Source of the DNA: Leucobacter luti
Lineage (GTDB): Bacteria; Actinomycetota; Actinomycetes; Actinomycetales; Microbacteriaceae
DNA: 64,000 bases
Assembly (NCBI RefSeq): GCF_019464495.1
Contig: NZ_CP080492.1
Location: 2,914,001-2,978,000, forward strand
Reading direction: 5' to 3'
The position numbers and the translations under genes were made by a program. Below, piece after piece: positions 4,620 through 42,866 of the stretch (position 1 is the first letter of the stretch; every line of letters begins with the position of its first letter). The notes under the pieces are model-generated. The model saw only the letters and a program-made list of their open reading frames with translations. It was not told the DNA's origin and made no database searches.

Positions 4620-4665
4620 GTATGCGATGATAGTCCCTTCATGATGGGTAGACGTTGGATGTTTG

Positions 4666-4678: not shown

Positions 4679-4718
4679 ACTGGGGTGGCGTGCGCGCCGG
4701 AAAGACAGGGGTGAAGTG

Positions 4719-5987
4719 GTGAACGCGAGGAATCGGTCGGGGCTGGCAGCACGGGAGCGGTCGGCGTTGGGACGCGCCGCGCCGCTCCTGGTCGCGCTCC
4801 TCCTGGTGGCCCTGAACCTGCGGCTCGGGATCACGAGCGCGAGTGCCTTGCTCACCGCGCTCACCGAGACCGGGGCGCTGTCCGCCTTCGCCGTGGTGCT
4901 GGTGCCAGCGATCCCGACCGCGGTGTTTGCGATTGCCGGGATCAGCACCGCGCGCCTTGCCCTCCGCTACGGCGCCGAGAAGGTCGTGCTCGGCGGCATG
5001 ATTGCGCTCACGGGAGGGCTTGCGGTTCGTGCAATCCCCGACCCCTGGGTCGTGGTGATTGGCACCATCGTCGCAACTGGCGGCCTCGCGATGGTCAACA
5101 TCCTGCTCCCTGCGGTCGTGCGTGCCCACTTTGGGCAGCGGATCGGACCGGTCACGACGGCGTATACGACCTTGATGTCTGTCGGTGCGGCGACCGCAGC
5201 GGCGGTGGCCGTGCCGCTCGCGAACTGGGCGGGCTCACCCTCTGTGGGCCTCGCCCTCTGGGCCATTCCCGCGCTCATCGCCGTCGTCGTCTGGGCGATC
5301 GCCATGCCCAAGGGCGGACCAAGCGCGGGCGCCGGTGAACCGGAGTTGACCGCGTCTGGCACGGTGATGCTGCCGGGAACCCGCCGCCCGCTGCCCGCAG
5401 GAACGGGGCTGCTCGCTGCCTACTTCGCACTGCAAGCACTGCTCAGCTACGTTGCGATGGGGTGGCTTCCGACGATCGCGTCCGACGCCGGGATCCCGCC
5501 AGAGCGTTCGGGGATGCTGCTTGGCATCACGATGGCTGTCGGCGTACCAGCCACCGTGCTCGTCGTCCCACTTGCGCGCGGTATTGGCCGGATGCGGATC
5601 GGCTTTACGCTCGTTGCCGCGGCAAGTGTCGCCGGACTCACCGGCCTGCTCGTGGCTCCCGCCGCGCTGCCGGAACTCTGGGCCGCCCTGATCGGCATCG
5701 GCATGTGCGCGTTCCCACTCGTGCTTGCGCTGATCGCTGGCTTTGGCGCGAACGCCGCGGAATCGGCGCGCGTGTCGACGCTGGTGCAGTCGCTCGGATA
5801 CTCGATTGCGACGCTGGGCCCGCTCGGAGCCGGCGCACTGCGGCAGGCAACTGATTCCTGGAGCGTGGTGCTCACCGTGCTCGTCGGATCCGTGATCCTG
5901 CAGGGCACGATTGGAGTGCTGCTGACTCAGGTCCTCAAACGGCGCCGGGCTGAGCAGCGCGAGGAGCGCTCTCCGCAGCAGCTCTGA
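4719..5987 (+). CDS. CynX/NimT-type MFS transporter
   Basis: About 422 aa with some 12 hydrophobic segments. The pattern LNLRLGITSASALLTAL in TM1 and the domain organisation fit the CynX/NimT cyanate/2-nitroimidazole branch of the major facilitator superfamily. The substrate cannot be read from sequence. An in-frame ATG exists at 4641, but GTG 4719 (or 4716) has a ribosome site (AGGGGTG) and leaves the candidate operator in the promoter. The 3' end overlaps the convergent TPR gene by 53 bp. Confidence 0.85.
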   Translation: MNARNRSGLAARERSALGRAAPLLVALLLVALNLRLGITSASALLTALTETGALSAFAVVLVPAIPTAVFAIAGISTARLALRYGAEKVVLGGMIALTGGLAVRAIPDPWVVVIGTIVATGGLAMVNILLPAVVRAHFGQRIGPVTTAYTTLMSVGAATAAAVAVPLANWAGSPSVGLALWAIPALIAVVVWAIAMPKGGPSAGAGEPELTASGTVMLPGTRRPLPAGTGLLAAYFALQALLSYVAMGWLPTIASDAGIPPERSGMLLGITMAVGVPATVLVVPLARGIGRMRIGFTLVAAASVAGLTGLLVAPAALPELWAALIGIGMCAFPLVLALIAGFGANAAESARVSTLVQSLGYSIATLGPLGAGALRQATDSWSVVLTVLVGSVILQGTIGVLLTQVLKRRRAEQREERSPQQL

Positions 5988-25034: not shown

Positions 25035-26108
25035 GTGGCCCTAACTATCGGAATCGTGGGACTGCCGAATGTCGGCAAGTCGACCCTGTTCAACGCTCTT
25101 ACGCACAACGACGCTCTCGCGGCGAACTACCCGTTCGCAACGATCGAACCGAACGTTGGCGTTGTCAACCTGCCAGATCCTCGGCTCGATACACTCGCCG
25201 AGATCTTCGGCTCTGAGCGCATTCTGCCCGCGCCGGTGTCATTCGTTGACATTGCGGGTATTGTGCGTGGCGCAAGCGAAGGGGAGGGGTTGGGCAATCA
25301 ATTCCTCGCGAACATTCGTGAGGCGGACGCCATCGCACAGGTGGTGCGTGGCTTCTCGGATCCCGATGTGATTCACGTTGATGGTGGGGTGAACCCGGCC
25401 AGCGACATGGAAACGATCAACACCGAGCTGATCCTCGCGGATCTGCAGACTGTCGAAAAGGCACTGCCGCGCTACGAAAAAGAGTTGAAGTCGAAGAAGA
25501 TTGACCCGGCAGTCGTCTCTACCGCGAACGCCGCCATCGAGGCGCTGAACGCCGGCACACTCCTCTCCCTGAGCGGCATTGATATCGAGCCGATCCGCGA
25601 GCTGGGGCTGCTCACCGCGAAACCGTTCCTCTACGTGTTCAACGTGGACGAGGGGGTGCTGCAGGATCAGGCAAAGCTTGCAGAACTCGCCGAGCTGGTG
25701 GCTCCTGCGAAGGCGATCTTCCTCGACGCCAAACTTGAGAGCGAGCTCATCGAACTCGACGACGACGATGCGGCCGAGTTGCTTGCCTCGATCGGCCAGG
25801 AGGAGAGTGGGCTGGATCAGCTCGCCCGCGTCGGCTTCGATACGCTCGGCCTGCAGACCTATCTCACGGCTGGGCCGAAAGAAGCTCGCGCCTGGACAAT
25901 CCGCAAGGGCGCGACCGCACCTCAGGCAGCAGGCGTGATCCACGGTGATTTCGAAAAGGGCTTCATCAAGGGCGAGATCATTTCCTTTGCTGACCTCGTC
26001 GAGACCGGATCCGTCGCGGAGGCCCGGGCGAAGGGCAAGGCGCGCATGGAGGGCAAGGAATACGTGATGCAGGACGGCGATGTCTGCGAGTGGCGTTTTA
26101 ACGTCTAG
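25035..26108 (+). CDS. ychF: redox-regulated ribosome-associated ATPase YchF (Obg family)
   Basis: 357 aa, start GTG 25035. The G1 loop is GLPNVGKST and switch/G3 is FVDIAGIVRGASEGEGLGNQFLANIREADAI. The G4 position reads NVDE, the altered motif that gives YchF its ATP preference. The C-terminal TGS domain (about 275-357) contains TSLGLQTYLTAGPKEARAWTI-type sequence. It acts on ribosomes and the stress response. The product is complete and of normal length. Confidence 0.96.
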   Translation: MALTIGIVGLPNVGKSTLFNALTHNDALAANYPFATIEPNVGVVNLPDPRLDTLAEIFGSERILPAPVSFVDIAGIVRGASEGEGLGNQFLANIREADAIAQVVRGFSDPDVIHVDGGVNPASDMETINTELILADLQTVEKALPRYEKELKSKKIDPAVVSTANAAIEALNAGTLLSLSGIDIEPIRELGLLTAKPFLYVFNVDEGVLQDQAKLAELAELVAPAKAIFLDAKLESELIELDDDDAAELLASIGQEESGLDQLARVGFDTLGLQTYLTAGPKEARAWTIRKGATAPQAAGVIHGDFEKGFIKGEIISFADLVETGSVAEARAKGKARMEGKEYVMQDGDVCEWRFNV

Positions 26109-26405: not shown

Positions 26406-29400
26406 TTGAAGAAGATCTTCTCAGGGGTAGCATCGGCGACCCTCATTCTCATGCTCGCACTCGCAGATGTCGCGGGAGGAATGAGTGCGGTCCCGGCGGC
26501 GCTCGCTGCTGAGACGCCGAGTATCACGCTGAACGGCACCGTCACGGAGGGTGACCCCGGGTACCTCAACTCGAAGTCGATTGTGCTCTCGACGGGTTCC
26601 GAGACAAAGATCAACTACCGCCTCGTCCCCGGCTACGCTTCGGGCGCCGCGACCGGGGTCACAGTTGCGGTGTACCTCCCCTCGCTCGAGTACGTGGGTG
26701 ATGGGTATCGAGTCGTTGGGCGGGATCGCGCCCCGAGCCCGCTCGGCGTCCAAGGCCGCGTGAGCGCGGGCGGCGGCTGGAACGTGCTCTCTGACACGAC
26801 CGTGCAGGGCGGCCCGATCGTGATGGAGTACGACGGCGACCTGCGGGCGGGCGTGAACCCCGCGTTCGACATCTTCCTCACGACGTACAACGACGGCACA
26901 GATGGTCCCTACGGCGGTGTGCCCGAGGGGACGCGCTTCGAGATCAACGGCTCCGTCTCGTATGAGATGTTCAACCGCGTCGAGGGCTCCTCCTGGACCA
27001 CCCCGAACGAGCTGGACGACGAGTCCCGTGTTTCTGTGATCTCCTCGGACCTGCGCTGGGAGACGCAGATCGAGTCGTATGTGCCGGGCGGCGGCCCGGA
27101 CCTCGTTCCCATCTGGGATCGCTACCAGTACGTCGACTACCTCTACTCCCTCTCGAACACCTCGGACAACGTCGCCGCCAACATCGACGGTTACTCGGTC
27201 ACCTTCGACATCGATTCGACCGACAGCGATGTGAACGGCATCATCCCGTTCGACATCAACCGCTGGCGGTACGAGGAGGGCGGTCCGGCGACCCCGAACG
27301 AGGACCGCAACGACACCTCGGGGCAGTTCGTCGGCGTGCCGGGCGAGGGCGGCGTGCTCATCTACGACGTCACCGACTGGGACGGCACGAGCGAGCTCAC
27401 CGACGAGATCCCGTACACGTATTCCGGAACGGGTATGCTCACGATTGATCGCGAGCACGGCGCGAACAAGCAGGCTCTCACCCCCGAGGGGGCGGCGGGC
27501 GCGTCCGAGCGCAAGTTCCTCATCTCCCTGCCGCTCAGCCGGCAGGGGTTCCCGAACCCGCCCACCACGTTCCGGGTGACGGCCATCACGAACATCCTCT
27601 TCGCAAAGACGGCGAACTGGTCGAAGACCCGCATCGCCGAGCGCGAGATCGTCGTGCCCGAGTACGCCTTCACCTTCTCGCACACCGCTCAGCAGCGCGA
27701 GGTGGTCTACGGTTACGAGACCTTCACGGAGATCGCGGAGCTGCGCAGCGCGTCGAACGCGCCCACCTTTGACCCCACCGTCCGCTACGAGCTCGATCCA
27801 GACGTCGTGCCCGATCGCGTGAGCTACGAGATCCCCGAGGCCGAGCTCGAGCGCTTTGCGGACGCGCGGGTGAACTATCGCTTCGAGGACGAACAGACGG
27901 GGGAGACGGTCACCGAGTCGCTCACGCCGACGGCCTCGGATCCGGATCCCGCGACGGGACTCGTCACCCTCACCTTCGATCTCGCGGAGCTGCAAGACCT
28001 CGCGTGGGACCGGACGCTCGTCTTCGGGCTCGTCGACCGGGTGGAGGCCGGCGAATTGCTCCCCGTCACTATCAAGGTGTTCGGCGCGCCCTTCCGCGTC
28101 GGCGACGTGACGGCGACCGCGACGGCCGTCTTCATCGAGAAAATCGCGAGCAACGACGACTTCGGGGGCAACACCACCTACACCGAGGTGCCGCACGAGA
28201 CGCCGATTGACGCGGGCTACACCGTGATCTACCCGAAGGAGGTCGTGCCGAACATCGCGGTGCGCATCGACGGCACGGCGGACCGGGCCACAGTGGACTA
28301 CGGCGCGAGGACCGCGATCGACTTCCTCTTCGGCGTGAACGGCACCGCGGCCGCAAACTCGACGACGACGCTCGCGGTGAATCCGAAAGTCGAGCGGCTC
28401 CGCGATGCGGAGCTTACCCTCCGGGCCGCGCTGTTCGAACAGGCGGATCACGTGCGGGTGAGCGTCGAGACGCTCGACGGCACCGTCACTGAGCTGGATC
28501 TCGGGAGCCCCGAGGCGAACGGCGACGTGGTCCTCGCCCTGCCCGAACACGTGGCGAAGGTCGTGATCGATACCGATGCGCTCACGACCGATGGTGCCGT
28601 GCACTTCGCCACGATCACGGCGAAGGTCGGCGCGAAGCTCGACACACAGCACGTGATCAATGCGAAGATTCGCACCTACCAGCCGAAGCCCTATGACCGG
28701 GATGCTACCCGCGAGGCCATGGGCACGATTGACATTCGGCTCCCCAATGAGCTCGCGCCCGCCGTTGACGTCGTCGGCATTTACGGCTCGCAGCGCACGC
28801 AGAAGACCACGAACGTCGGCTACGAGTCGACCTTCGCCGCCGAATACCAGGTGGATACGAAGGGCGTGAACTCGCCCGCGTCAAGCTACACCATTGACAT
28901 GCTGGCGCCTACGAAGTCAGGAGCGCTCGAGTTCTCGAAGATCGCACTGCAGCAACCGTTCCTTGACGGCATCACAGATCCCGTGATCACCTTTGTGAAC
29001 GCCGCAGGAAAAGAACAGAAGTTCACGGTCTCCGAGCGTGCTGCCGCGGAAGTATCCGCCGCCGACGTGACACTCAGTGACATCGCGAAGATTGTCATCT
29101 CGGGGAAAGACCTGCGCATCCAGGGGCTCAGTGCGGTGGCGCTCGTTGAGTACCGGGCGAACATTGAGATCGGCTCATCGCAGACGCTGCGCGCCACCTT
29201 CACCGGGACGCAGGAAGCCCCGTACGAGGAATCGAAGACCGCGCGCCAGCAGAACCAGGTGGACGTGCGCGAGACCCAGACAGACGTGAAAGTCGAGGGC
29301 GTCAACCAGGTGACGCAGCCACTCGGCGCAGGGAACGCATACTCGGTCGATATCTATCGCTGGTGGAACCGGGGCTCCACCTACAACACGCAGGATTACA

Positions 29401-32400
29401 CCCTCGATCAGGGCTACAAGTCGCTCGGCGGGTTTACGACCACACTCACCCGTCCGACCGCGGCGTCCGAGAACAACGACCAGCGCGTCAGCGTCGATGT
29501 CGCGTTGCCGCACACCCAGTTCGACCTCTACTACCTGAAAATCCGCGAGGACATGCGACCGTACCTCGAGTCGGTCGACCTGTTCCGTATGGTCGATGGC
29601 ACAGAGGTGCTCTGGAAGACCGTACCCGGCGACGCCTGGGTGGAGAACTCCCAAGAGGGTGCCGGTTTCTGGCGCATTGCGACCGCGCGGCCGGGCAGCC
29701 CCGACAGCGAGCTGTTCACCACGTACGACTCTGTTGCGGGAGTCAGTGAGCACCCGTACTACAAGGAGGCCTGGGACGCAGATGTGCAGCCCGAGTCGCC
29801 GATCTCGCGTGTCTCGGTGCACCTCGAGTTCTCGCGCGAGAGCAACGACGCTGTTCCGCAGATGGCTGGCACGCAGAACGACGTGATCGAGTACATGGGC
29901 CGCTTCCACTCGTCGTCCGTGAAGGGCAAGCAGGCGACGAAGCTGACCGCGACCGACACGTTCGGGCACGGCCGTGAGCTCACGCGCACGGCGAGCACCT
30001 CGATCAATTCGCTCGTCGCGTACCCGTTCGCGCAGTCAAAGACTGGCGCGAACGACAGCACCGCGCTCGCCAACAAGGTGATTCCGATGGGCAGCACGGG
30101 GGAGTACCTCGCGAGCATCTGGAATGTGAACACCGCGAGCTGGTCGTACTACTCCGGACACGGGCCAGACGTGTACTCACCCGCCGCGACCGAGTACGAC
30201 GAGTGGCTCGGAATGTACGATCCGGCGTCGTTCCACGACGAGCTTGTGTACGAGTTCGTGTACCCTGCGAGCCCGCACGATGATGCCGTCTACAACCTTG
30301 ACGCAAGTCATGTCACGATCGCCGACACGAGCACACTCACATACCTCACCGGGGTGCGGGTGACCGGTGCGCGCGGCGACATCCTCTCCGCAGACTTCGC
30401 AGCCCCCCTCACGCAGGCCCCCCGCTTTGACTACGACAATTCTCGCGAGCGCGGGATCCATGACGACGGCGACGGGACGTTTACCGTCTCGTTCGGTCAG
30501 GAAGGCTCCTACCCGAAGCGCTTCGAAGCGATCTTTGAAGAGGTCGCCGGCTTCGGCGAGCGCACCGCAGAGCTCGACGGCGTCGCCCCCGACACCCTCG
30601 GCACCTCGCTCGCCGAGGTGGACGTGCGCGTGGGTGGCGTGGTGAACGGCAACCGCGCGCTTCAGGGCACGACGAACCTGTACCGCATACCGAGCGACAC
30701 CGGGATCAAAGCCCTCATGCACTCGTCGAGCGCCACGCTGACCGGCTACACGCCGAAGCTCGGCGCGAAGCTCGACATGAGCTTCGACAGCGTCAAGGTA
30801 TACGACTACCAGGCCGACGGCATCACTCCGAGTACGACGCAGGTGGCCGTGGGGATCGAGAACTCCTCCGAGGCGGACATCAAAGACGCCGTGATGACCT
30901 TCACGCCCGACGCCGCGTACCGCTCGCAGCTTGTGGCGATCCCGGAGGACATCTTCGACGGGGACTGGTCGGTAGACCGGGTCACGGTAACGCAGGGCGG
31001 CACCACGGTCGAGATCGCCCGCGATCGCTTCACCTCGAACCCGGAGACGGGCATGCGCGAGTTTGACCTGCGCACGCTGTTCGCGGACGGCACGCTGCGC
31101 TCGCAGCCGTTTGACGTGACGCTGGGTGGTCACGCGACCCTGCTCAAAGAACACATCGACAGCATTTCCGTGGCGTTCGCGCCGCGTGACGGCACGGTCG
31201 GCCTGTGGGGCTCGATCACTCGCGCCAACTCGAGCGAGCCGCTCCCTACCCGGATGCGTGACGGGGGAGATGTGTTCGTCACAGGTGTCTGGGTCGACGA
31301 GGCCGCGGACGGGCCTGGCTGGAGCTCGAAGCCGACGTTCGTGACGGAGCGCAGCAAGGGCAGCACGGAGCAGATCATGCTGCACAGCGCCTTCTCCGCG
31401 AGCGCGGTGGTGACCTCCTACAATCCGATCTTCGTTTCTGCTGGGGGTGGCAATACCGGTGAGAAACCGACGTTGCGGCTTGCGAGTACCGCGAACAGCG
31501 ATGCCGCGCCGCGGGTCTTCACCCGTGTGGCGCGGATGCAGTCGCTTGCGATTCACCTGCAAGAGGACTTTTCGCGGGCCGACGCGACGGGCCTGTTTTA
31601 CGACGCGGACACGGGCACTCAGATCGACTACACGAACATCGCGGTGGGCGACACGACCCGTGTGCTCTACGAACTGCGGAACGTCGGCACGACGGCGAGC
31701 GACGACGCCGGTCCCGGCTCGCTTCCCATCTTCAATCCGGTGGCGCACATTGAGGCGCCCGCGTATTTGGAGGTGTCGGATGTCCAGGCGGCCTCTGCCT
31801 ATTTGCTTGCCGATGAGAACCGCGCAGGGCTGATCGCGGAAAGCGTCAACACAGCGGTGACCGTGCCAGAAGAGAGTGTGCAGATCACACGCCTCAATGC
31901 CAAGCGCTCCGATGTTGCATTCGACCTGACGCTCAACGACGGCGAGTCCGTGTTCTTCGTCGTAGAGTTCACGGCGACAAGTGATCAGTCCGCGAACCTG
32001 AATGTCACCCAGGGCAAGACCCTGCAGTGGAACGTGTATGCGCGCCCCGCCTACACGCACCACTTCATGAGCTACAACAGCGACGGAGCGAATGGGAACC
32101 GGGTCACCGGATCCACTGCTGCCGTAAACTTCGACGGCGATGCGTTTGCCGAGCAGCTCGGGAGACTGAGCAACACGGCGTATCGCTACGCCGATCCGAA
32201 GCAGCTCGTCATCGAGAGCCGCTTCGACCGGGAGAACGTGTCCGGCGAGGACATGACACTCACCGTGAAGAACATCGGGAACGAGATCCGGCACGACAAC
32301 ACTGCCCTCGACCTCTTCGTCACGCTCGACACCGGTGGCCTGCTCGGCTTCGAGCTGACCGAGTTCCCGAGCGTCCCCGCGCTGAACGTGCCCGAAGGAG

Positions 32401-35400
32401 CGGCCGCCGCCGCGCAGCCGACGGTCCTCTTCCAGGACGGGGACGGGAAGTGGGTCGACGCGGCCGACTTTGACCCGTCGCAGCACGCGATGCGCGAGAT
32501 CGGAAAACTCTGGATCCGCTACGGCACCGTGCACGCGGGCGCCGGGCCGTCGAGCTTCGAGATTTCGGGGATTGGGCACTGGCGTACGCCGGGCGCCCAG
32601 GGCACGAAATCGTACCGTCTCACCTCGCAGGCGCAGACGCGCCTCACCCACCAGGATGAGACTGGCGCGGGCATCGCCGAGTACAGCTACCGTACCGAGG
32701 CCTCGCAGACCGTGTACAAGGCCATCCCGACGGTCGAGTTCAACATCCAGTCTTTCGACACTCACGCCGAGGCGACGGCGCGCTATGACGGCGCGCAGCC
32801 GGGGAAGACCGGCTACGTGGCTGGCGACGACGTGCACTACCGGCTCACAGCGAAGAACCACAGCACAGATCAGGGCACGAGCACGAACACGCCCTACGGC
32901 AAGGCTCCGCTGCGCCACCCCGTGATCGTCGACAAGATCCCCGAGTACCTCAGCACCGAGTTGAGCCGCTTTGTGCACGCCGGAGAGCTCGACGTCGCAG
33001 GCGCCATCGCCGCGGGCGTGCTCGAGATCCGCATGCTCGACGCCGCGGGCGCTCCGCGCGACTTCGCACTGCCCGAGGTCACCGTGCGCTCGGTGACCGG
33101 GCTCGACGTCGCGGGCGCCCAGACCTTCGCGAACGACCGGCACAACGACGGCTGGGGCAGGCTTTCTTCCGCCGAGCCCGTCAACACGACCCTGAACCCG
33201 GCCGACACCATTGACTTCGACGTGTTCAGCTACGCGTTCGGGGACGAGGATCTCGGCCGCGGCGAGCAGCTCGAGATCGTCTACATGGCCACCGCGCGGG
33301 AGCACGATCTGCCCCGGGCTGAGTACACCGACGGCACGGCGGTGTTCGCGCCGCTCTTCGGCTGGTATGGCAGCAATGTGCCAGTCGCGAACTCTGCAAA
33401 GCAGACCTCGATGGACCTTGCTGCGCTGCTCCACGATGCCGGAATTACGGGCGACCGGGGCCACGAGATGACCGCCTCCGAGTTCCTGTCGAACTCATAC
33501 TCCTGGCTCCCCGGCTCCACCGACCGGCGCCGCGACGCGAGCAACTCGCCGGGATCGTACCTCCAAGCGACCTACTATGACGCCTCGGCGAACGTCGAGA
33601 AGTCGCACACTGCGCACCTCCGTGAAACTGCCGCGAGCGAGCTGTACACGAGCTTTTCGTCGACCGCGCTCGACGAGAACTTTGCCTACGCGACGAAGGC
33701 CCGCGTCGCCGACGGTGCGGTGACCACCCCCGAGCGGATCCTCTGGGCGCAGGACGGCATGCAACTGAACCGCGCCTGGCTGTCGGGCGCGAGCGAGATG
33801 GTGCCCGATGTGGAGCGCGCCGCGTGGGGCGCCGATGCGGCGAACTTTGTCGAGCACGACGGTTCACTCAACTCATACGAGCGGCATCGGCTCGGCTACA
33901 CGCCGTACGTCGAGGACGACTACAGCTACGCCGTGCAACTGCACGAGGAGTTCACCGTGCGCCTCCACGCTGCGAACCTCGGCGACCGCGCGATCGGCAG
34001 CGGCCTCGAATACACGGAGATCCTCCCGCTCGGGATCAGCCCATACGACGAATCGGGCCAGCTCCTCGGCGTGACGGCGCTGAGCGGGGGCAATGCCGAG
34101 TTGGCGAGCGAGGTCGAGATCCTCCAAAGCCCAGACAACGACCAGGGCTACCGGGCTCCCGCCCAGTCCCAGGAAGCCGGCACCTACGCTGAGACGACCC
34201 GCGACGACGGGATCCCCTACGTGCTCCGGGTGCGGGTCGCGGGCGAGGTGCCCGGGCTCTTCGGCTCAGCTGCCGCCGAGCAGAGTTTGCAGTCGCAACG
34301 CGTCGAGATCCGGGTTCGCGTCGCGGGCGAGGTGCCGGCGAACGCGAACGGCCTTTCGCTCTGGCACGATCAATTCACACTCAGCACGATCGCGCCAGAG
34401 GAGTACCTTGAGATCTATGGCGCCGAGTACGGCGGCTTCAGCCGACCACTCAGCGTGTACAACACGGCCCGCTTCCCGAACGACGGCATGGCGCAGGGCC
34501 TGAACGTCAACGATCTCGCCTATGACTTTGGTTCCTACACCTCGTACTTCGCGGTGGAGCCGTGGGGCCGGTATGTGCGCGGCCTGAACGCGCAGGGCAC
34601 CGCGACCTCCGTTGACAGCGGCCGCCCCGCCATCGTCACGGGGGACGAGCTCGCCATGCGCCGCCCCACGCTCCGCGTATGGAGCAGCGCGAGCAAGGAT
34701 ACGTATCCCGCCGGGATCGATTCGACGATCGAGGACTTCAGCGTCGACCTGTACGAGGAGTTCTCGATCCGTTCGACCGTCGAGAACCAGCAGCTCGAGG
34801 TGCTCGGCGAGTACAACCGGGTGAACAGCGGCTACAACCGCTACTCGGGGGAGAACTTCAACGACGATATCTGGAAGAACGCCCCCCAGACCATCGGCGG
34901 CGCACGCGGCACCTGGTTCGAGCCCACTGTGACGATCGCGCTGCCCTACGGCATCGCGCCCGTCCTTGAGGACGGCTCGCTCGCCCGGTACGACGGTGAG
35001 ATCGCGCAGCAGCAGGGCGTCGAGTTCTCGGCCTCCGCGCAGACACTTGGGCTCGGCACCTCGGTGCCCGCGCGAGATCTGAGCGAGCTCTTCGACGTGA
35101 GTGTTGAGCTGCTCGAAGACAAGCTCGGCGAACGCTTCCTGCTGCACTTCACGGCCCGCGCCGACCGATCTACCGAGATCGCGGCCGGCGAGTCGCTCGA
35201 GATCACACCCCGTGTGGCCACGATCGATACGCCGCTCTACGGGGCCGATACCGATGACAGCCGCTACCAGCACCTGCTCGCGCTCGCGGGCACGCAGCGG
35301 CCGGTCTTCGCCCCTGTCGTCTCGGAGCGCTACACGACCGGGGCACCCCCGTCGCTCACCGCGCGCGACCAGGGCGTCTCGGCCGCTCCCAATAACGTGA

Positions 35401-38400
35401 AGTCCTCGAACGGCCTCGCCATCACGGCGAACGACCGGATCCGCCGCGACGCGACGAGCACGTGGAGCAGCAACATGGGTGCGCTGAAGATCACCGAACG
35501 CCTCATCGCTGCCACGGAGCCCTATGGTGCAGACACCGAGCTCACCCTCAACACGGGTACGGGCTGGATCGAGCGCGCTCGCGCTCTGACGCAGGCCGGA
35601 CCGACCGGCGGCGCAGGCGCCACGGGCGGAGCCACCGCGTACGCCACGACTGGCGCATATGGCAGCAGCGATCTGAACCTGAAGAAGCCGTCGATCACGA
35701 ACACGACGAAGGCGGCCACCTTCGCAGACGGCGCGCTCGCCGAGCTGATCCAGGTCGACGCGGCGGGGAAGTACTGGCTCGCGACCGAGGTGTCGAACGC
35801 GCCGGAGGATGAAACGAATCCCTATGAGCGTGTGAAGACCGCGGGCGACGTCCACAATTCCCGCTTCGTCGTCACCCAGTTCGTCACCAACTTCGCCGCG
35901 GCGACGGACGAGGTACGCATCGCAGTTGGCGACGAGGTGCTCGATCGCGCCGCGTTCGAGGCGCTCGGCTACACGGTCGAGCGGATGACGCCCGCCGAGC
36001 CCACAGTTGATGCGACGCGCAATCGGATCCAGTGGGTCGTCACGCCGCCCGCGGGGGAGCGCGGCACGCGTGGCGAGCTGAAATCGGGCGAGCGATTCAC
36101 ACTGCTCACCGAACTGCAGCTCATCGATGGCTACGAGGACAACGTCGTCTCCGACGACATCGTCTGGACGGCCGACGAGCTCGTCATGGATACCTACGTC
36201 TCACTGATCACGGATGACACAACGCTGATCCCTCGAGAGGTCGCCGGGGCACAACGACCGGCTGACTTCATCGTGCAGTCGCTCGCGTCGATGAAGTATC
36301 ACACGCACGTGAGCGATCGGGGCGTCGGGATCGACATCGACAGCAATGGAGATTTGGCGGGCCGCTACGCCGCCGACGCTGCCGAGATCGAGATCCTGAA
36401 GCCGCGCGCCGAGGTACGCGTCAACACGACCCGGCCTCGCATCGCCTACTCGAATGGGCTCTCGGGCGACACGTACTTCAACTCCTCGGACACGATCGAG
36501 TACCTCATCACCCACGCCGAGAACACTGGCTCCGGGCTGACCGAGCTCGTGATCGAGAACATCCTGCCCACGGACACGACGAACGAGAGCACCGTCTCGG
36601 TCAGCAACCAGCCGATCACGACGAACACGCGGTACGTCACTTCCGGCACGTGGGAGCTGCCGCAGCGCACGGTGGACCGGCTCGCCGACGCGGGCACCGG
36701 GATCGATGACGCCTTCAAGACCTTCGTCTACGTCTCCGACGAGCTCGCCGAGGACGGCTACGAGGCCGGGACATGGTCGCTGCTGAATCCTGGCGGTACC
36801 TCGATCCTGCGCAACGAGCGGTTCGAGATCCCGGCGGCGACACAGGCAGGCCTGCAGAAGATCCGGATCGTGGTGCGCGCTCTTGACCCCGAGACGAACC
36901 TGGTGCCGCAAGGCACCCGCCTCGCGATCGACGCGGACCCTGAGACGCCCGGAACGCAGTCGGTGCTCGACACTGATCCAACGAACCAGAGCACGAAGCC
37001 CTACCCGGCCTCGGTCACAGACCACGCGATCTCACTGGGCGTGCGGATTGGGTCCAACGCGAAGTCGACGCTCTTCGTTTATGACACCGCACAATTCTGG
37101 GGCAATTACGTGTCCACGCGGGTGTCGAAGCTTGCGCAGAGCGAGACCCGCTCCTATCTCACCCCGTCGCGCCCCGTGGTCAACGTGAAGTACGACTCGC
37201 TCTACTACCGCAGCGACTCCACGAAGCCCGCCGATCAGCGCTTCGGCTGGTCCGACATTACGGCGATCGCTCCGAAGTCGTCCCCGCACCTGAAATTCAG
37301 CGGCGAGTTCATCAACGCCGACCGCTCGATGTGGTCGCGCGAGGAGGACAACACGTACGCCGAGGACACCCTGGTGAACCCCTTCGTCACGTTCCAGCTC
37401 CCCACGGTGATGGAGTCCGGCGGGGCGTTCACCTACGTACCACAGGCAGACATCATCGCTGATCACCCGCTCGACAGTGCGCACCGCTCGCGCTACTCGC
37501 TCACCGCGGACGATACGAACCTGTGGACGTGGAAGCTCGTCCGCGCCGACGGCACTGTGGCGGACCCTGAATCGCACCTGAAGCACACGCGGATCGCGAC
37601 TGGCCCCTGGCCCGGCTTCGACCGGAACGTGGTGTCGGTGTGGTTCGAGGGCAGCGTCATGCCCGGAGACAAGATCGTCGTCGAGTTCATCGGCGCGGTC
37701 GACGCCTACTCGCCCGGTGCCGACGCGGAGGATCTGAAATCCCGTGCCATGGTGACGAACAACACCGGCCTGCTTCACCCGCTGAACTCGCAGCAGAACG
37801 CCGCGAACCGCCTCGGCTACTCGACCGACGGCAACGACTTCAACGACAACAAACTGATGAACGACCGCCTGGTCTTCTCGGAGAAGTCGCTGTTCCAGTA
37901 CGAGACCTACGATAACTTCGGGAAGCGAAAGGTCGCGTATTCCGATCTCAACCGGGCGGGCAGCGTTGCGCCCGAGCAGACGCCTGTGCGTCAGGGCGGC
38001 GACTTCACCTTTGAGGTGTCCGTTGACAACTCGAAGGAAGCTGGAGACCGGCCCTACCCGTACCCGATCATGTATGACGTGCTGCCCGCGGCGGGCGACA
38101 CCTCGATCACCAACCCGACCATCTCGCGCGGATCGCAATACTCGGCATGGCTCCGACCGGAGAGCGTGAAGCTGGAGCGTGAGGGCGCCGATAAGAAGAC
38201 GTACCGGGCGAACGAATACACCGTATTCGTCGGACCGTTCACGAAGCAGGCCGGCGAGATCGTGGAGACCACCATGGTGCCCCACGCCGAGGCGGCGAGC
38301 GAGTCGTTCTACGACGCGCTTGGGCTGCCAGGGGCTCCCTCCGCGGTGCGCGACCAGCACTTCGTGCCGCTCGCTGAGCTCGCGGACCGCCCAGAGCTGC

Positions 38401-41400
38401 TGCACCGTGCGCAGTCGATTCTCGTGCTCTTCAACAACGCCGCGGAGCAGCTGCCTGGGCAGAACAAGCTGAAGCTCAGCTACACGATGCAGTCGCCGCT
38501 CAACGCGCCGGTCTATCTGGAGCAATTCGACGGTGCCGAACGCAAGGCCGAAGCGTCACTGTGGAACTCGTTCATGGCGACGCAGCGGGTCAGCCGCTTC
38601 ATCCCGCAAGAGTCAAACAACGCCGGCGTCTACGCGACGGAGAAGCGAGACGGCGTCTACCTCGGGAACTACGTCTGGAACGACGTGAACTACAACGGCG
38701 AGCAGGACGAGGGCGACGCGGTGCGCGACGGCAACGGCCGCACGCATCTGCAGCCGACGCGCGATCTCGACTTCGATGGCGAGATCGACGACCCCGGCAT
38801 CAACGGTGTGCGCGTGACCCTGCTGACGCCCGCGGGATACAACATTGACGCGCTCGGCAACCCGATCCACGAGGTTTCGGGTGCGTGGGAGGTCGTCGAC
38901 GAAGCCACCGGAATGTCGGTGCTCGATGAGGTGTTCCAGCGCCCCATCCCCTCCGAGGGTCCGCTCGTGACCGTCACAGAATCGGACATCGCGGGCAACG
39001 CGGGGTACTACACCTTTTCGAATATCCGTCCGGGCGACTACCGAGTCCTGTTCGAGTTCCCGCGCGAGTACGACGCGTTCTCGGCCACCACACGCACCGT
39101 GTTCGAGCGGGCCGGCGTCGAGAGCTTCGCGCCGGGTGAGGCGCTCGACATCCCCGCGCAGGTGGACGACGCCGCGCTCGTGGCCATCACCGAGGCGGCC
39201 ACCGTCGACTCAGCCACGAACGACGCGCAGCGCATGAGCTTCGACCTCGGCGTCGCGCAGATGATCGAGTTCGGCGGCACGGTGTTCGCCGAGGACATTG
39301 ACACGCTCGACGGCTACCAGTCGGGACCGAACGAGCCGGGTATCCCGGGCTACCATGTCACGCTGAAACGCATGAGTGGCGAGACCGTGCGTGACGCCCA
39401 CGGCAAGCCGATGGTTGCCGTGACCGACGCGCAGGGCGCATACCGCTTCACCCTGCTCCCAGTTGACCGCCAGTACTACCTGGAGATTACCGACGAGAAC
39501 GGCGAGTTCAACTCGGAGCGGCTTGTCTCCCCGTTCCTGCACCACAGCGACCCGTTTGCCGAGGCGAACGATAACGACGGGCTCAACGAGAAGGGCACGC
39601 GGATCGTGAAGACGAACCCGCTGAACTTCGACCTGGAGGGCCTCTTCACTTCCGGCTTCGCCCCGCGTGAGAGCGTGAGTATCGGCTTCTACGACAAGAC
39701 GACGTACGGCGTGATCGGCAACCGAGTGTGGGACGACCGCAACCGGAACGGCCTCCAGGACGCGGGGGAGCCGGGAATCGCCGGGCAGCAGCTCGAGCTC
39801 GAGCAGTACGTCGAGATCGACGGCGCCTGGACGCGCACCGAGTACACCCAAAGCACAGTGTCGAACGACGACGGCTTCTACTACTTCACAAAGGTGCCGA
39901 GCGTCCGCTACGACGGCGCGGAGGCACTGCCGACGAAGTACCAGGTCGTCGTCAATGACCTCGTCACCGGGTACACCTTTGCACCGACACACGCCCGTGG
40001 CCCCTCGCCGACAGGCTCGACAGAGCTGGATTCCGACTTCTTCCCGAACGGGACGATGCACGAGTCGGGCGCTCCCCTCAGCGAGCACCTGATCAGCGTC
40101 GTGGAGATCGACGACGCGACGGGCGTCGTGTTCGGCATCACCGACAACACGATCGACCTCGGGCTCGTGGAGCACGCGCGCTCGGTGCTGTCGGGTGAGG
40201 TGTTCCTCGACGCCGATGCGAGCGGAACGAAGACCGCGGCCGAAGTCGCCGCGGCAGAGGACCGCTACACAGCAACCCTCGAAGTGCGCACGGCCGCCGG
40301 GTGGATCACCGCGCGGCAGGACGGCGCGGGGCGCATGATCGAACCAGCATCGGCGCGCGAGAGTGACGCGCCGATCCAGCAGGCGGGCGTTTCGGCGTAT
40401 CGCTTCGAGGAGCTGCACATTATCGACAGCGTGCGGCTCGTGCCCTACGAGTACCGCGTGCGGATCACCGAGGTGCCACTCTGGCAGGGCCTCACGGTGC
40501 TCGGCGCGGGAGACGATCCGGCGATTGACAGTGACTTCACCCAGGCGGATCGAGGCGCGACGCTCACAGCGGTCTCTGAGACCCGAGTGCTCGGCGCGCT
40601 CCAGAACGAACTGCTGCCCATCGAGACCCGCGTGGGGACCCCTGCGGAGGACGTCGATCTGGGGCTCGTGCCGCTCAAGCGTGAGGCGCTGATCGGCGAC
40701 TTCATTTGGGACGATCGCGACCGCGACGGGCTCCAGGGCGCCGCCGAGCCCGGCCTGGGAGGGATCCGCGTGGTGCTCAACCGAGTGATCGACGGCGAAC
40801 TCGTGCCCGTCGCTGAGACGGAGACGGACGGCGACGGAGCATACGCGTTCACCGCCGCGGTGGCCGAGGAGGATCCCGCGAGCGCGCGCGTTGACCAGCC
40901 GCACCGCTACGTCGTGGAATTCGCCCTCAGTTCGCGCCAGACGGTCTCCCCGTTCAAGACTGGCAGTGACGACGCGAAGAACTCCAAGTTCGCTGAGCTG
41001 ATTGCCGGGGGCGCCGCGCGCTACGGCCACGCGATCGCCGATCCTGCGCACACGGTGATCTCCGAGGAGTTTTCGCTCGTCTCGGCCGATGGGAACGGCC
41101 TCGCCGAGTACACGACGGTGACCGGCACCGAGCGCATCGACGGCGGCGTGATCACGCACGACTCGATCCGCATCCTCGGCGACACGGTCTACCACGACCG
41201 CAACGCCGACGGCGTGCAGGATCCCGAGGAGCCGGGTATCCCCGGGATTGAGGCGGCCGTCTACGCTCTGAACCGAGACACCGGACTCTGGGAACCGTAC
41301 ACGGACGGAGACGGCAAGAGCACAGCCGTGACCGATGCTGACGGTCACTACTCGTTCGCGGTCGAGGTCGCCGATCTCGACAAGGGCTCGCCGCACTACC

Positions 41401-42866
41401 GCACCCCTGCGGAGTATCGCGTGCTCATCAAGGCGCCGGCAAACCTCAAGCTGGTCGAGCAGAACAACGTGTTCTTCCCGCAGCAGGGAGGTGACGTTGC
41501 CGGGATTCCGATCGCGAAGCCCTATAGCTTCGTGCTGACCGAGCCGATCGCGCTCATCGAGGCGGGGGACGCAGGCTCTGCGAATTCCGCGGCGCCCGTG
41601 CTCGATCTCGAAACTGCCCATGACGTCCTCACCGCCGACGCTGGCTTTGCCGTGTTCGACACCGCCGTGACGATCGGCGGGCGGATGTGGGAGGACGCCA
41701 ACCACGACGGAATCCAGGACGCCGATGAGGCGGGGATTGCCGGCCGCATGGTCGCCCTGTGGGAGCGCATCGACGGCACCTGGACACGCGTCGACGGGCT
41801 CGACGGTGTGGGCGAGACGATGACCGATGCACTGGGCAGCTACCGCTTCGAGGTCGCGCCCACGCACTACGAGGAGGGAGCGGACGGCTTCCTCGCGCCG
41901 CGGGAATACCGCGTCACCGCAGAGCGCGCGGGCTACCAGCTCTGGTCGCCGCTCAATGTGGGTGACGACCGCGCGCTCGACAGCGATATCAGCACGCTGA
42001 ACGAAGTGACTCAGGCCCCGGAGTTGCCTCAGCCCGTCTCGCACACGGGGGCGACAGCGGTCTTCTCCATTGCTGATCACTCGGACGGAGTGGTCGACCT
42101 CGCCTCTGCCCGCGATGACGTACAGATGGACATCGGCGTGAAGACACACCCGCACCTCACCACGATCGGGGGCACGGTGTGGGACGACGCCAATGAGGAC
42201 GGCACGCAGCAGCCTGGCGAAGCGCCGTTTGCCGATCGCGAAGTAACCCTGTGGGAGCGCATTGACGGCGAGTGGCGGATCGCGACTGACGCGAACGGTG
42301 ATTCGACGCAGCGCACCGACGCGGAGGGCCGCTACGGCTTCGCAGTGTTCCCCACGGAGTACGACGCCGCGGCCACCGGCTACCTTTTGCCACGCGCGTA
42401 CCGCACCACCGTTGAGGTGCCGCGCGACTTCGCCCTGAGTGCCGGCAGCCTGACCGCTGCGATCGAGGGGGAGCGGGCTGCCTCGATCCAAGCGCGCATC
42501 GTGGATCTGGCACCCGAGACGCCTGTGACGCCCGAGCCGCCAGTGGAGCCTGAAGCTCCTGTGGATCCTGAGGTGCCCGTGGACTCTGAAGCGGGCGAGG
42601 GCGTTGCTGTGGCTGGCGCGGGTGGATCATCCGACGCAGGCGGCCGGATCGATCTGGCGAGTGTGCGCGAAGACCACTCACTCGGCTTCCCGTTTGCGCG
42701 GGTGCCTGTCCCGGCCACTCCGATCCCCGGCCTTCCCGTGATCGGCGATCTCGCGATCACCGGCACCGGCCTTGGCCTCGGCATGGCGGGAGTCGCGGTG
42801 CTGTTGCTCGGGGCTGGCGCGGTGCTGATCGGCGTGCGCCGGCAGCGTGCGAAGCAGGAGCGATAG
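26406..42866 (+). CDS. giant LAxTG-anchored surface protein with SdrD_B-like repeats
   Basis: About 5,486 aa from TTG 26406, preceded by GGGAG. This start gives a classical signal peptide (MKKIFSGVASATLILMLALA..., ending near LAAE, residue 34). The in-frame ATG 26310 would put 32 non-signal-like residues in front. The body (about 35-4080) is beta-rich with recurring DUF11/adhesin-like strands, for example near 1744 (VGDTTRVLYELRNVG), 2140 (GDDVHYRLTAKNHS), 3358 (SSDTIEYLITHAENTGSG) and 3862 (RQGGDFTFEVSVDN). Eight SdrD_B-like modules begin near 4082, 4288, 4436, 4593, 4761, 4922, 5088 and 5253. A Pro/Glu spacer (about 5370-5396) precedes LAITG (5449-5453), a TM helix and RRQRAKQER. I found no cysteine in the mature chain. 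It should be exported, sortase-anchored (class E prefers LAxTG) and act as an adhesin or stalk; the ligand is unknown. Confidence 0.92.
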   Translation: MKKIFSGVASATLILMLALADVAGGMSAVPAALAAETPSITLNGTVTEGDPGYLNSKSIVLSTGSETKINYRLVPGYASGAATGVTVAVYLPSLEYVGDGYRVVGRDRAPSPLGVQGRVSAGGGWNVLSDTTVQGGPIVMEYDGDLRAGVNPAFDIFLTTYNDGTDGPYGGVPEGTRFEINGSVSYEMFNRVEGSSWTTPNELDDESRVSVISSDLRWETQIESYVPGGGPDLVPIWDRYQYVDYLYSLSNTSDNVAANIDGYSVTFDIDSTDSDVNGIIPFDINRWRYEEGGPATPNEDRNDTSGQFVGVPGEGGVLIYDVTDWDGTSELTDEIPYTYSGTGMLTIDREHGANKQALTPEGAAGASERKFLISLPLSRQGFPNPPTTFRVTAITNILFAKTANWSKTRIAEREIVVPEYAFTFSHTAQQREVVYGYETFTEIAELRSASNAPTFDPTVRYELDPDVVPDRVSYEIPEAELERFADARVNYRFEDEQTGETVTESLTPTASDPDPATGLVTLTFDLAELQDLAWDRTLVFGLVDRVEAGELLPVTIKVFGAPFRVGDVTATATAVFIEKIASNDDFGGNTTYTEVPHETPIDAGYTVIYPKEVVPNIAVRIDGTADRATVDYGARTAIDFLFGVNGTAAANSTTTLAVNPKVERLRDAELTLRAALFEQADHVRVSVETLDGTVTELDLGSPEANGDVVLALPEHVAKVVIDTDALTTDGAVHFATITAKVGAKLDTQHVINAKIRTYQPKPYDRDATREAMGTIDIRLPNELAPAVDVVGIYGSQRTQKTTNVGYESTFAAEYQVDTKGVNSPASSYTIDMLAPTKSGALEFSKIALQQPFLDGITDPVITFVNAAGKEQKFTVSERAAAEVSAADVTLSDIAKIVISGKDLRIQGLSAVALVEYRANIEIGSSQTLRATFTGTQEAPYEESKTARQQNQVDVRETQTDVKVEGVNQVTQPLGAGNAYSVDIYRWWNRGSTYNTQDYTLDQGYKSLGGFTTTLTRPTAASENNDQRVSVDVALPHTQFDLYYLKIREDMRPYLESVDLFRMVDGTEVLWKTVPGDAWVENSQEGAGFWRIATARPGSPDSELFTTYDSVAGVSEHPYYKEAWDADVQPESPISRVSVHLEFSRESNDAVPQMAGTQNDVIEYMGRFHSSSVKGKQATKLTATDTFGHGRELTRTASTSINSLVAYPFAQSKTGANDSTALANKVIPMGSTGEYLASIWNVNTASWSYYSGHGPDVYSPAATEYDEWLGMYDPASFHDELVYEFVYPASPHDDAVYNLDASHVTIADTSTLTYLTGVRVTGARGDILSADFAAPLTQAPRFDYDNSRERGIHDDGDGTFTVSFGQEGSYPKRFEAIFEEVAGFGERTAELDGVAPDTLGTSLAEVDVRVGGVVNGNRALQGTTNLYRIPSDTGIKALMHSSSATLTGYTPKLGAKLDMSFDSVKVYDYQADGITPSTTQVAVGIENSSEADIKDAVMTFTPDAAYRSQLVAIPEDIFDGDWSVDRVTVTQGGTTVEIARDRFTSNPETGMREFDLRTLFADGTLRSQPFDVTLGGHATLLKEHIDSISVAFAPRDGTVGLWGSITRANSSEPLPTRMRDGGDVFVTGVWVDEAADGPGWSSKPTFVTERSKGSTEQIMLHSAFSASAVVTSYNPIFVSAGGGNTGEKPTLRLASTANSDAAPRVFTRVARMQSLAIHLQEDFSRADATGLFYDADTGTQIDYTNIAVGDTTRVLYELRNVGTTASDDAGPGSLPIFNPVAHIEAPAYLEVSDVQAASAYLLADENRAGLIAESVNTAVTVPEESVQITRLNAKRSDVAFDLTLNDGESVFFVVEFTATSDQSANLNVTQGKTLQWNVYARPAYTHHFMSYNSDGANGNRVTGSTAAVNFDGDAFAEQLGRLSNTAYRYADPKQLVIESRFDRENVSGEDMTLTVKNIGNEIRHDNTALDLFVTLDTGGLLGFELTEFPSVPALNVPEGAAAAAQPTVLFQDGDGKWVDAADFDPSQHAMREIGKLWIRYGTVHAGAGPSSFEISGIGHWRTPGAQGTKSYRLTSQAQTRLTHQDETGAGIAEYSYRTEASQTVYKAIPTVEFNIQSFDTHAEATARYDGAQPGKTGYVAGDDVHYRLTAKNHSTDQGTSTNTPYGKAPLRHPVIVDKIPEYLSTELSRFVHAGELDVAGAIAAGVLEIRMLDAAGAPRDFALPEVTVRSVTGLDVAGAQTFANDRHNDGWGRLSSAEPVNTTLNPADTIDFDVFSYAFGDEDLGRGEQLEIVYMATAREHDLPRAEYTDGTAVFAPLFGWYGSNVPVANSAKQTSMDLAALLHDAGITGDRGHEMTASEFLSNSYSWLPGSTDRRRDASNSPGSYLQATYYDASANVEKSHTAHLRETAASELYTSFSSTALDENFAYATKARVADGAVTTPERILWAQDGMQLNRAWLSGASEMVPDVERAAWGADAANFVEHDGSLNSYERHRLGYTPYVEDDYSYAVQLHEEFTVRLHAANLGDRAIGSGLEYTEILPLGISPYDESGQLLGVTALSGGNAELASEVEILQSPDNDQGYRAPAQSQEAGTYAETTRDDGIPYVLRVRVAGEVPGLFGSAAAEQSLQSQRVEIRVRVAGEVPANANGLSLWHDQFTLSTIAPEEYLEIYGAEYGGFSRPLSVYNTARFPNDGMAQGLNVNDLAYDFGSYTSYFAVEPWGRYVRGLNAQGTATSVDSGRPAIVTGDELAMRRPTLRVWSSASKDTYPAGIDSTIEDFSVDLYEEFSIRSTVENQQLEVLGEYNRVNSGYNRYSGENFNDDIWKNAPQTIGGARGTWFEPTVTIALPYGIAPVLEDGSLARYDGEIAQQQGVEFSASAQTLGLGTSVPARDLSELFDVSVELLEDKLGERFLLHFTARADRSTEIAAGESLEITPRVATIDTPLYGADTDDSRYQHLLALAGTQRPVFAPVVSERYTTGAPPSLTARDQGVSAAPNNVKSSNGLAITANDRIRRDATSTWSSNMGALKITERLIAATEPYGADTELTLNTGTGWIERARALTQAGPTGGAGATGGATAYATTGAYGSSDLNLKKPSITNTTKAATFADGALAELIQVDAAGKYWLATEVSNAPEDETNPYERVKTAGDVHNSRFVVTQFVTNFAAATDEVRIAVGDEVLDRAAFEALGYTVERMTPAEPTVDATRNRIQWVVTPPAGERGTRGELKSGERFTLLTELQLIDGYEDNVVSDDIVWTADELVMDTYVSLITDDTTLIPREVAGAQRPADFIVQSLASMKYHTHVSDRGVGIDIDSNGDLAGRYAADAAEIEILKPRAEVRVNTTRPRIAYSNGLSGDTYFNSSDTIEYLITHAENTGSGLTELVIENILPTDTTNESTVSVSNQPITTNTRYVTSGTWELPQRTVDRLADAGTGIDDAFKTFVYVSDELAEDGYEAGTWSLLNPGGTSILRNERFEIPAATQAGLQKIRIVVRALDPETNLVPQGTRLAIDADPETPGTQSVLDTDPTNQSTKPYPASVTDHAISLGVRIGSNAKSTLFVYDTAQFWGNYVSTRVSKLAQSETRSYLTPSRPVVNVKYDSLYYRSDSTKPADQRFGWSDITAIAPKSSPHLKFSGEFINADRSMWSREEDNTYAEDTLVNPFVTFQLPTVMESGGAFTYVPQADIIADHPLDSAHRSRYSLTADDTNLWTWKLVRADGTVADPESHLKHTRIATGPWPGFDRNVVSVWFEGSVMPGDKIVVEFIGAVDAYSPGADAEDLKSRAMVTNNTGLLHPLNSQQNAANRLGYSTDGNDFNDNKLMNDRLVFSEKSLFQYETYDNFGKRKVAYSDLNRAGSVAPEQTPVRQGGDFTFEVSVDNSKEAGDRPYPYPIMYDVLPAAGDTSITNPTISRGSQYSAWLRPESVKLEREGADKKTYRANEYTVFVGPFTKQAGEIVETTMVPHAEAASESFYDALGLPGAPSAVRDQHFVPLAELADRPELLHRAQSILVLFNNAAEQLPGQNKLKLSYTMQSPLNAPVYLEQFDGAERKAEASLWNSFMATQRVSRFIPQESNNAGVYATEKRDGVYLGNYVWNDVNYNGEQDEGDAVRDGNGRTHLQPTRDLDFDGEIDDPGINGVRVTLLTPAGYNIDALGNPIHEVSGAWEVVDEATGMSVLDEVFQRPIPSEGPLVTVTESDIAGNAGYYTFSNIRPGDYRVLFEFPREYDAFSATTRTVFERAGVESFAPGEALDIPAQVDDAALVAITEAATVDSATNDAQRMSFDLGVAQMIEFGGTVFAEDIDTLDGYQSGPNEPGIPGYHVTLKRMSGETVRDAHGKPMVAVTDAQGAYRFTLLPVDRQYYLEITDENGEFNSERLVSPFLHHSDPFAEANDNDGLNEKGTRIVKTNPLNFDLEGLFTSGFAPRESVSIGFYDKTTYGVIGNRVWDDRNRNGLQDAGEPGIAGQQLELEQYVEIDGAWTRTEYTQSTVSNDDGFYYFTKVPSVRYDGAEALPTKYQVVVNDLVTGYTFAPTHARGPSPTGSTELDSDFFPNGTMHESGAPLSEHLISVVEIDDATGVVFGITDNTIDLGLVEHARSVLSGEVFLDADASGTKTAAEVAAAEDRYTATLEVRTAAGWITARQDGAGRMIEPASARESDAPIQQAGVSAYRFEELHIIDSVRLVPYEYRVRITEVPLWQGLTVLGAGDDPAIDSDFTQADRGATLTAVSETRVLGALQNELLPIETRVGTPAEDVDLGLVPLKREALIGDFIWDDRDRDGLQGAAEPGLGGIRVVLNRVIDGELVPVAETETDGDGAYAFTAAVAEEDPASARVDQPHRYVVEFALSSRQTVSPFKTGSDDAKNSKFAELIAGGAARYGHAIADPAHTVISEEFSLVSADGNGLAEYTTVTGTERIDGGVITHDSIRILGDTVYHDRNADGVQDPEEPGIPGIEAAVYALNRDTGLWEPYTDGDGKSTAVTDADGHYSFAVEVADLDKGSPHYRTPAEYRVLIKAPANLKLVEQNNVFFPQQGGDVAGIPIAKPYSFVLTEPIALIEAGDAGSANSAAPVLDLETAHDVLTADAGFAVFDTAVTIGGRMWEDANHDGIQDADEAGIAGRMVALWERIDGTWTRVDGLDGVGETMTDALGSYRFEVAPTHYEEGADGFLAPREYRVTAERAGYQLWSPLNVGDDRALDSDISTLNEVTQAPELPQPVSHTGATAVFSIADHSDGVVDLASARDDVQMDIGVKTHPHLTTIGGTVWDDANEDGTQQPGEAPFADREVTLWERIDGEWRIATDANGDSTQRTDAEGRYGFAVFPTEYDAAATGYLLPRAYRTTVEVPRDFALSAGSLTAAIEGERAASIQARIVDLAPETPVTPEPPVEPEAPVDPEVPVDSEAGEGVAVAGAGGSSDAGGRIDLASVREDHSLGFPFARVPVPATPIPGLPVIGDLAITGTGLGLGMAGVAVLLLGAGAVLIGVRRQRAKQER
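38649..42510 (+). repeat. array of eight SdrD_B/CNA-B-like modules within the giant protein
   Basis: Each module of about 150-205 residues opens with a (I/L)-G-x-x-(V/I/M)-(W/Y/F)-x-D motif. It continues with an EF-hand-like loop and an E-P-G-I-x-G turn. Six loops look competent for Ca: DVNYNGEQDEGD, DRNRNGLQDAGE, DRDRDGLQGAAE, DRNADGVQDPEE, DANHDGIQDADE and DANEDGTQQPGE. Modules 2 (DIDTLDGYQSG) and 4 (DADASGTKTAAE) are degenerate. Sequence between modules is well diverged, so the array is old rather than a recent tandem expansion. Confidence 0.85.
42750..42863 (+). other. cell-wall sorting signal of the giant protein
   Basis: LAITG at 42750-42764, then a hydrophobic helix of about 22 residues (GLGLGMAGVAVLLLGAG...) and a positively charged tail RRQRAKQER to the stop. 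LAxTG rather than LPxTG is the motif used by actinobacterial class E sortases. No sortase gene lies in this window. Confidence 0.85.

Follow-up and report, generated by a model that had tools for sequence, protein, structure and literature searches.

A 16.5-kb gene for a giant, putatively wall-anchored surface protein in Leucobacter luti

The giant gene and the architecture of its product

The stretch of DNA analysed here, called the window throughout, comprises 64,000 nucleotides from Leucobacter luti. It carries one very long gene, whose product (the giant protein) has the layout of an exported, sortase-anchored surface protein. The gene and the parts of its product, all on the plus strand, are as follows.

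26406..42866, +: giant surface-protein gene, TTG start, 5,486 codons plus stop, from reading of the frame and from homologues
26406..26510, +: putative signal peptide, residues 1-35, cleavage at about AALAA/E, judged by eye
26511..38654, +: body, residues 36 to ~4083, with predicted immunoglobulin-like (Ig-like) beta-sandwiches in both modelled stretches
28176..29153, +: sole clear internal duplication of the body, residues ~591-740 and ~757-916 (hhalign probability 98, E 2.8e-14)
38664..42512, +: SdrD_B stalk of eight modules (Pfam PF17210), residues ~4087-5369, outer limit inferred
42513..42593, +: Pro/Glu spacer, residues from 5370, with 18-bp tandem units at 42538-42593
42750..42764, +: sorting motif LAITG, residues 5449-5453
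42765..42863, +: hydrophobic stretch and basic tail, ending RRQRAKQER

The frame from the TTG codon at 26406 to the stop at 42866 has no internal stop codon, compared with 17 to 194 stops in the five alternative frames. The encoded protein has a calculated mass of 593 kDa, a pI of 4.5 and not a single cysteine, so that the uninterrupted, cysteine-free frame of about 5,486 residues in the original prediction was read correctly. Absence of cysteine is not a trait of the whole family, as 14 of the 29 family proteins counted lack it and the remaining ones contain 2-4 cysteines. Mechanical calling of open reading frames (ORFs) places the start upstream, at GTG 26310. We took TTG 26406 instead because the N-termini of the homologues P0002-P0005, which read MKK, then I or F, then FSG, agree with it. 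Codon usage of the giant gene correlates with that of 12 neighbours (0.974), with a higher GC content at third codon positions (GC3; 0.862 vs 0.767). The minus strand within the gene (26421-42491) carries long antisense ORFs, the largest with 1,095 codons, which are common in GC-rich coding DNA.

By eye, the N-terminus resembles an export signal, with MKK and a hydrophobic stretch ahead of the putative cleavage site. At the other end of the protein, eight SdrD_B-like modules had been proposed, and Pfam recovers PF17210 in precisely 8 stretches, with a score of 264.3 bits (cut-off 29.7). Seven modules can be placed by a motif at their start (residues 4087, 4438, 4597, 4764, 4925, 5091 and 5255), and the eighth, less regular one was assigned by eye to residue 4290. 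CarboxypepD_reg likewise lies above its Pfam cut-off in the C-terminal half, and three more families fall below theirs. NCBIfam yields SdrD/SdrC-type stretches, a LAVTG anchor model below its cut-off and two weak matches. Residues 1-2750 match no Pfam or NCBIfam family at E<=1. The original prediction also saw DUF11-like signatures in the body, a point that we could not uphold. No DUF11 or TIGR01451 profile matches the giant protein at E<=1 in Pfam and NCBIfam, or the homologues P0019 and P0022 at E<=10, in both cases with HMMER filters that drop most weak matches, and a DUF11-built body was therefore rejected.

The proposed Pro/Glu spacer and LAITG-TM-RRxR anchor are present as described, with LAITG followed by a hydrophobic stretch and RRQR. 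The actinobacterial group shows LAxTG in 21 of its 25 aligned proteins. All 7 low-GC proteins lack it, and TG is found in 32/32. LAXTG is the sorting signal of class E sortases according to PMC5148588. The genome encodes three sortases, one of class E and two of class C by NCBIfam, and the class E model NF033747 scores above its cut-off. All three lie outside the window and none was found among the 28 window ORFs scanned, so that a sortase adjoining the giant gene was rejected. One class C sortase elsewhere in the genome (L013, 1333-3345) adjoins a protein ending LTGG-TM-RRRK, likely a pilus locus distinct from that of the giant gene.

When 240-residue slices of the body were compared as profiles (528 pairs), the duplication listed above was the one strong pair. 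Its first copy is missing from six homologues (P0018-P0023). A weaker similarity over 47 columns links positions ~2508 and ~2778 (probability 61). By these comparisons, the body does not form a repeat array in its sequence. Two stretches were modelled with AlphaFold2 from 23-24 sequences, namely residues 30-1200 (1,171 residues; mean pLDDT 81.4, predicted TM-score (pTM) 0.43) and 2897-4092 (1,196 residues; mean pLDDT 75.0, pTM 0.51), the latter being weak mainly at model residues 22-183, 938-967, 1003-1015 and 1137-1196. Both models are all-beta except for short helices, in accordance with the beta-rich body foreseen in the original prediction. In VIA-align the best matches superpose single domains on pilins with a root-mean-square deviation (rmsd) of 2.6-3.2 Å over 131-143 residues. 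For tandem stretches the matches are antigen I/II C-domains, PrgB and integrin legs, with a large rmsd of ~8-38 Å, and the top Foldseek match of 2897-4092 is PrgB (8beg; E 1.4e-14, TM-score 0.16-0.25, rmsd 22.2 Å). Absence of a family from these match lists does not exclude that family. By sequence, residues 1-4098 match no PDB chain at E<=1, and a solved relative of the body was thus rejected at this threshold. The models support a string of Ig-like domains in the two modelled stretches and suggest that similar folds recur within the body without sequence similarity.

A family conserved along its length and patchily distributed

A database search with residues 1-4050 returned 28 proteins. A second search with the low-GC member P0028 returned 31, of which 4 were new, and a third with P0026 added nothing and did not recover P0017 and P0028. 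The family therefore comprises at least 32 database proteins (P0002-P0029 and P0031-P0034) of 3,245-7,231 residues, a lower bound because only the best candidates were scored in each search (1,069, 1,267 and 836) and because the P0026 search missed two members. Assigned sources are Leucobacter, Microbacterium caowuchunii, Salinibacterium sp. ZJ70, Arthrobacter and Erysipelothrix sp. HDW6C (Bacillota). Six further members (P0017, P0026, P0028, P0031, P0032 and P0034) appear Bacillota-like from composition and tree position. Databases name family members 'SdrD B-like domain-containing' or, in Erysipelothrix, 'hypothetical', and the open-access literature searched contained no description of the family, literature beyond it not being covered.

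Our alignment holds 32 rows, the giant protein and 31 others, leaving out the unrelated neighbour P0030 and P0029, a protein of 3,245 residues that lacks the N-terminal part. P0028, which lacks the first ~800 residues, was omitted from columns 1-820. Across these rows 486 of 5,486 columns are invariant. The seven low-GC members share 37.7-49.9% body identity with the giant protein. In 200-residue bins, low-GC identity is uneven, 17-62% within the body (the part missing from P0028 aside), with residues 201-400 among the best-conserved stretches; it is 0-48% beyond residue 4600, a region that covers the anchor and the later of the stalk modules. From this alignment, the family spans two phyla with a nearly non-repetitive body that appears collinear along its whole length. 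The original prediction missed both the whole-length conservation of the body and the reach of the family beyond Microbacteriaceae, to Arthrobacter and to Erysipelothrix sp. HDW6C.

In an IQ-TREE phylogeny of 3,143 body columns, 25 proteins form one group at full bootstrap with P0017 as sister, also at 100; 10 of the 25, that of the window included, are from Leucobacter, Microbacterium, Salinibacterium or Arthrobacter. FastTree on the same 3,143 columns places P0017 at the root instead, and in an earlier 28-protein tree three low-GC members grouped with the Leucobacter clade. As all roots are midpoints, the trees do not settle a direction of transfer. The unclassified Leucobacter protein P0023, together with P0018, clusters with Microbacterium and Arthrobacter apart from other Leucobacter in the IQ-TREE phylogeny, indicating that the gene moved between genera or was lost differentially.

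Comparison of the giant gene with seven Leucobacter loci in ten bins each gave a proportion of non-synonymous differences (pN) below that of synonymous ones (pS) in 70/70 bins (pN 0.02-0.38, pS 0.16-0.66, with synonymous sites near saturation in distant pairs). Because of this pattern and the 32 database homologues, we regard the giant gene as a real and old gene. Over the N-terminal 500 residues, identity to G007 is 94%, on a par with YchF (95%) and GlpX (92%) and well above two uncharacterised neighbours (48 and 51%), but to G036 it is 59% vs 89% for YchF.

The distribution is patchy. With residues 3200-4050 as query, a match was found in 10 of 54 genomes of the genus, the present one and one broken copy included, and in 5 of 398 genomes of the family (again including the present one), which represent 3 of 85 genera. 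In the order and in the phylum only the present genome matched (1/396 each). The sets for family, order and phylum are samples, and scoring there was confined to the top two first-look candidates of each genome. The supposed rarity in Microbacteriaceae thus holds for this protein family, the survey not extending to LAxTG giants in general. A scan of genome contigs with two peptide patterns gave 9 loci, 8 in Leucobacter and one in Arthrobacter citreus. It missed the Microbacterium, Salinibacterium and Erysipelothrix members, whose sequences possibly do not fit the patterns. The copy in G022 is broken (L035, 2449-11998, beside ychF), its residues 1-171 lying in one frame and 172-1096 in another, and after a large gap in the middle it resumes with 3762-5485. 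A copy in G494, a genome of another genus (L031, L032), is 79% identical over residues 3200-4050, which hints at movement between genera. Residues 1-2865 match a single place in the L. luti genome, leaving no sign of a paralogue over this part. No match was found for residues 1-2998 in 72,556 plasmid records or for a 301-residue profile in viral contigs. With codon usage like that of the neighbours, the higher GC3 notwithstanding, a mobile-element cargo was rejected.

The genomic neighbourhood

Upstream of the giant gene lies its neighbour in most carriers examined.

25035..26108, +: ychF (Pfam PF06071), outside the giant protein

Among the 11 other carriers with an examined upstream flank, 9 have the giant gene ~0.2-3.4 kb downstream of ychF (G006, G007, G008, G020, G022, G029, G036, G037 and G742). 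It lies away from ychF in G026 and G494, and the two genes occupy separate contigs in A. citreus. The interval between ychF and relA (window 26108-48643; also L042-L053) houses the giant gene in many carriers. We examined 12 ychF-downstream stretches devoid of it, from 11 giant-free genomes and the ychF site of G026. In 5 of them relA follows, at 2.0 kb in G024 and at 5.4, 5.9, 7.8 and 10.3 kb in the others, which amounts to intervals of ~2 kb in G024 and of 5-10 kb in G014, G013, G003 and G026. In the other 7, relA was not found within 12-13 kb downstream of ychF. As content and length of the interval differ among genomes, the giant gene occupies a variable slot.

A TAP-like alpha/beta-hydrolase with a lipoprotein-like start, predicted to be secreted, is encoded at 46047-47660 and also stands near the giant gene in G007, G008, G020, G026 and G494. 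It occurs in 21 of 54 genomes of the genus (E<=1e-60). In G006 and G022 a different contig or a distance of >600 kb separates it from the giant gene. It is on a different contig in G029 as well, but there the contig of the giant gene ends nearby. We rejected it as a specific partner, since 13 of the 21 hydrolase genomes lack the giant gene and two carriers (G036, G037) lack the hydrolase. Among the neighbours tested, no partner gene travels with the giant gene. For this reason, and because its recognisable module types are known, the term 'undescribed system' in the original prediction was too strong.

A probable surface fibre and its alternatives

The sequences establish the frame, the modules, the conservation and the presence of sortases in the genome. 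On this basis we consider it probable that the giant gene specifies a single-gene, sortase-anchored surface fibre serving adhesion or cell-cell contact. The protein would leave the cell through Sec and be joined to the wall by the class E sortase. The SdrD_B modules and the spacer would hold the body clear of the wall. The Ig-like chain would project from the cell and bind either a surface, a second cell or itself. The likeliest binding end would be the N-terminal 380 residues, which would sit at the greatest distance from the wall and include the well-conserved stretch 201-400. An Ig-like domain is ~4-5 nm long. With each domain of the two models taking up some 200-240 residues, we estimate ~17-20 domains and a length of ~100 nm in all. 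The very long wall-anchored fibre or adhesin of the original prediction, with adhesion as its putative role, fits the signal peptide seen by eye, the Ig-like models of two body stretches, the SdrD_B stalk, the LAxTG motif and the class E sortase. Overall, an adhesion-type giant that has so far escaped study seems a better description of the protein than a novel type of machine.

Several observations weigh against a surface fibre for adhesion. No known adhesive domain emerged from the Pfam scan and the modelled parts are Ig-like only, a common fold whose matches to Ig-like and integrin structures show no function. Multi-domain superpositions were poor (rmsd ~8 to 38 Å, PrgB TM-scores of 0.16-0.25), pTM values of 0.43 and 0.51 leave the domain arrangement unsettled, and the models cover residues 30-1200 and 2897-4092 of the body. 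The LAVTG model NF058582 scored 24.2, below its cut-off of 27. Adhesins frequently diverge rapidly at their binding ends, but conservation here extends over the whole body, which a plain stalk with one adhesive tip would not lead one to expect.

Conservation along the entire body bears on an alternative in which identical chains would interlock over their full length, between cells as a homotypic zipper or side by side as an envelope scaffold. Full-length interlocking would place every domain under selection. The invariant columns of a nearly non-repetitive body, its single clear duplication and the low-GC identity retained, if unevenly, in every body bin are consistent with this idea. However, large proteins may be conserved for folding or export alone, and the loss of one body domain in six homologues argues that some domains are dispensable. 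We think such interlocking unlikely. Slightly less credible is a new class of giants in which the whole 4,000-residue, nearly non-repetitive Ig-like chain would be the working part, for instance an end-to-end homotypic zipper or a ruler between cells. Actinomycetota and Bacillota alike would carry it as a single gene.

A strict MSCRAMM, i.e. a stalk-displayed adhesin in which two Ig-like domains trap a peptide ligand by the dock-lock-latch mechanism, appears improbable. MSCRAMM hallmarks are a nine-residue latch-strand motif and a Ser-Asp repeat region. The motif reached at best 4/9 in the giant protein, a level that 20 shuffles equalled or exceeded with 4 or 5; a Ser-Asp repeat region was not seen in the translation, and the relevant structure matches have an rmsd of 17-19 Å. 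Very long secreted proteins can carry toxins, and the giant protein might be an effector, for example in contact-dependent killing. Yet no catalytic domain scored above cut-off in Pfam or NCBIfam (P0019 and P0022 were also scanned), the C-terminus is a wall anchor instead of a variable toxin end, and no immunity-type family was detected among the window neighbours scanned, which makes this role very hard to credit. An artefact of assembly or frame, for which we found no supporting point, is next to inconceivable. The assembly is a single contig, 99.82% complete, the database protein P0002 is 99% identical and joined there by many more long copies, and 8 further genomes of the genus contain open frames of 4,903-5,571 codons.

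The giant protein delimits a family of giant wall-anchored proteins that databases so far name by their stalk only. Patchy occurrence combined with lengthwise conservation over two phyla is odd for surface adhesins, and it raises the testable question of why so many different domains are kept in order.

Among known systems, the staphylococcal MSCRAMMs SdrC and SdrD share the SdrD_B modules with the giant protein, both by Pfam and by sequence similarity to the solved SdrD. SdrD is sortase-anchored, likewise consistent with the LAITG anchor found here. Unlike SdrC and SdrD, the giant protein lacks the MSCRAMM motif and Ser-Asp repeats and has a body of ~4,050 residues. With the C-terminal domains of antigen I/II proteins (AspA, BspA, SspB, SpaP) it has no sequence match. 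PrgB from the Enterococcus faecalis plasmid pCF10 (PDB 8beg) may resemble it in its tandem Ig-like domains, as predicted by the models, and differs in the missing sequence match already mentioned. According to PMC10588982, PrgB is a surface adhesin encoded by a conjugative plasmid, in contrast to the giant protein with its lack of plasmid matches over residues 1-2998.

The giant proteins Giant1-5 of Apilactobacillus kunkeei are likewise extracellular surface proteins, of 3,000-8,000 residues, and according to PMC12863079 they have long internal repeats, an N-terminal beta-solenoid in four of the five and five consecutive genes. The present gene, by comparison, is solitary and its body almost non-repetitive. 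Nothing in our analysis ties it to the link of Leucobacter with worm-star and nematodes, and the word Leucobacter is absent from the main text of PMC9210967, which treats fibrillar adhesins. According to that paper, more than 90% of predicted fibrillar adhesins with known stalk domains have no known adhesive domain, and by the Pfam scan the giant protein resembles them in this respect. With the fibrillar adhesin class it shares its length, its wall anchor and its SdrD_B stalk, and it stands apart by its size and by a body conserved across two phyla.
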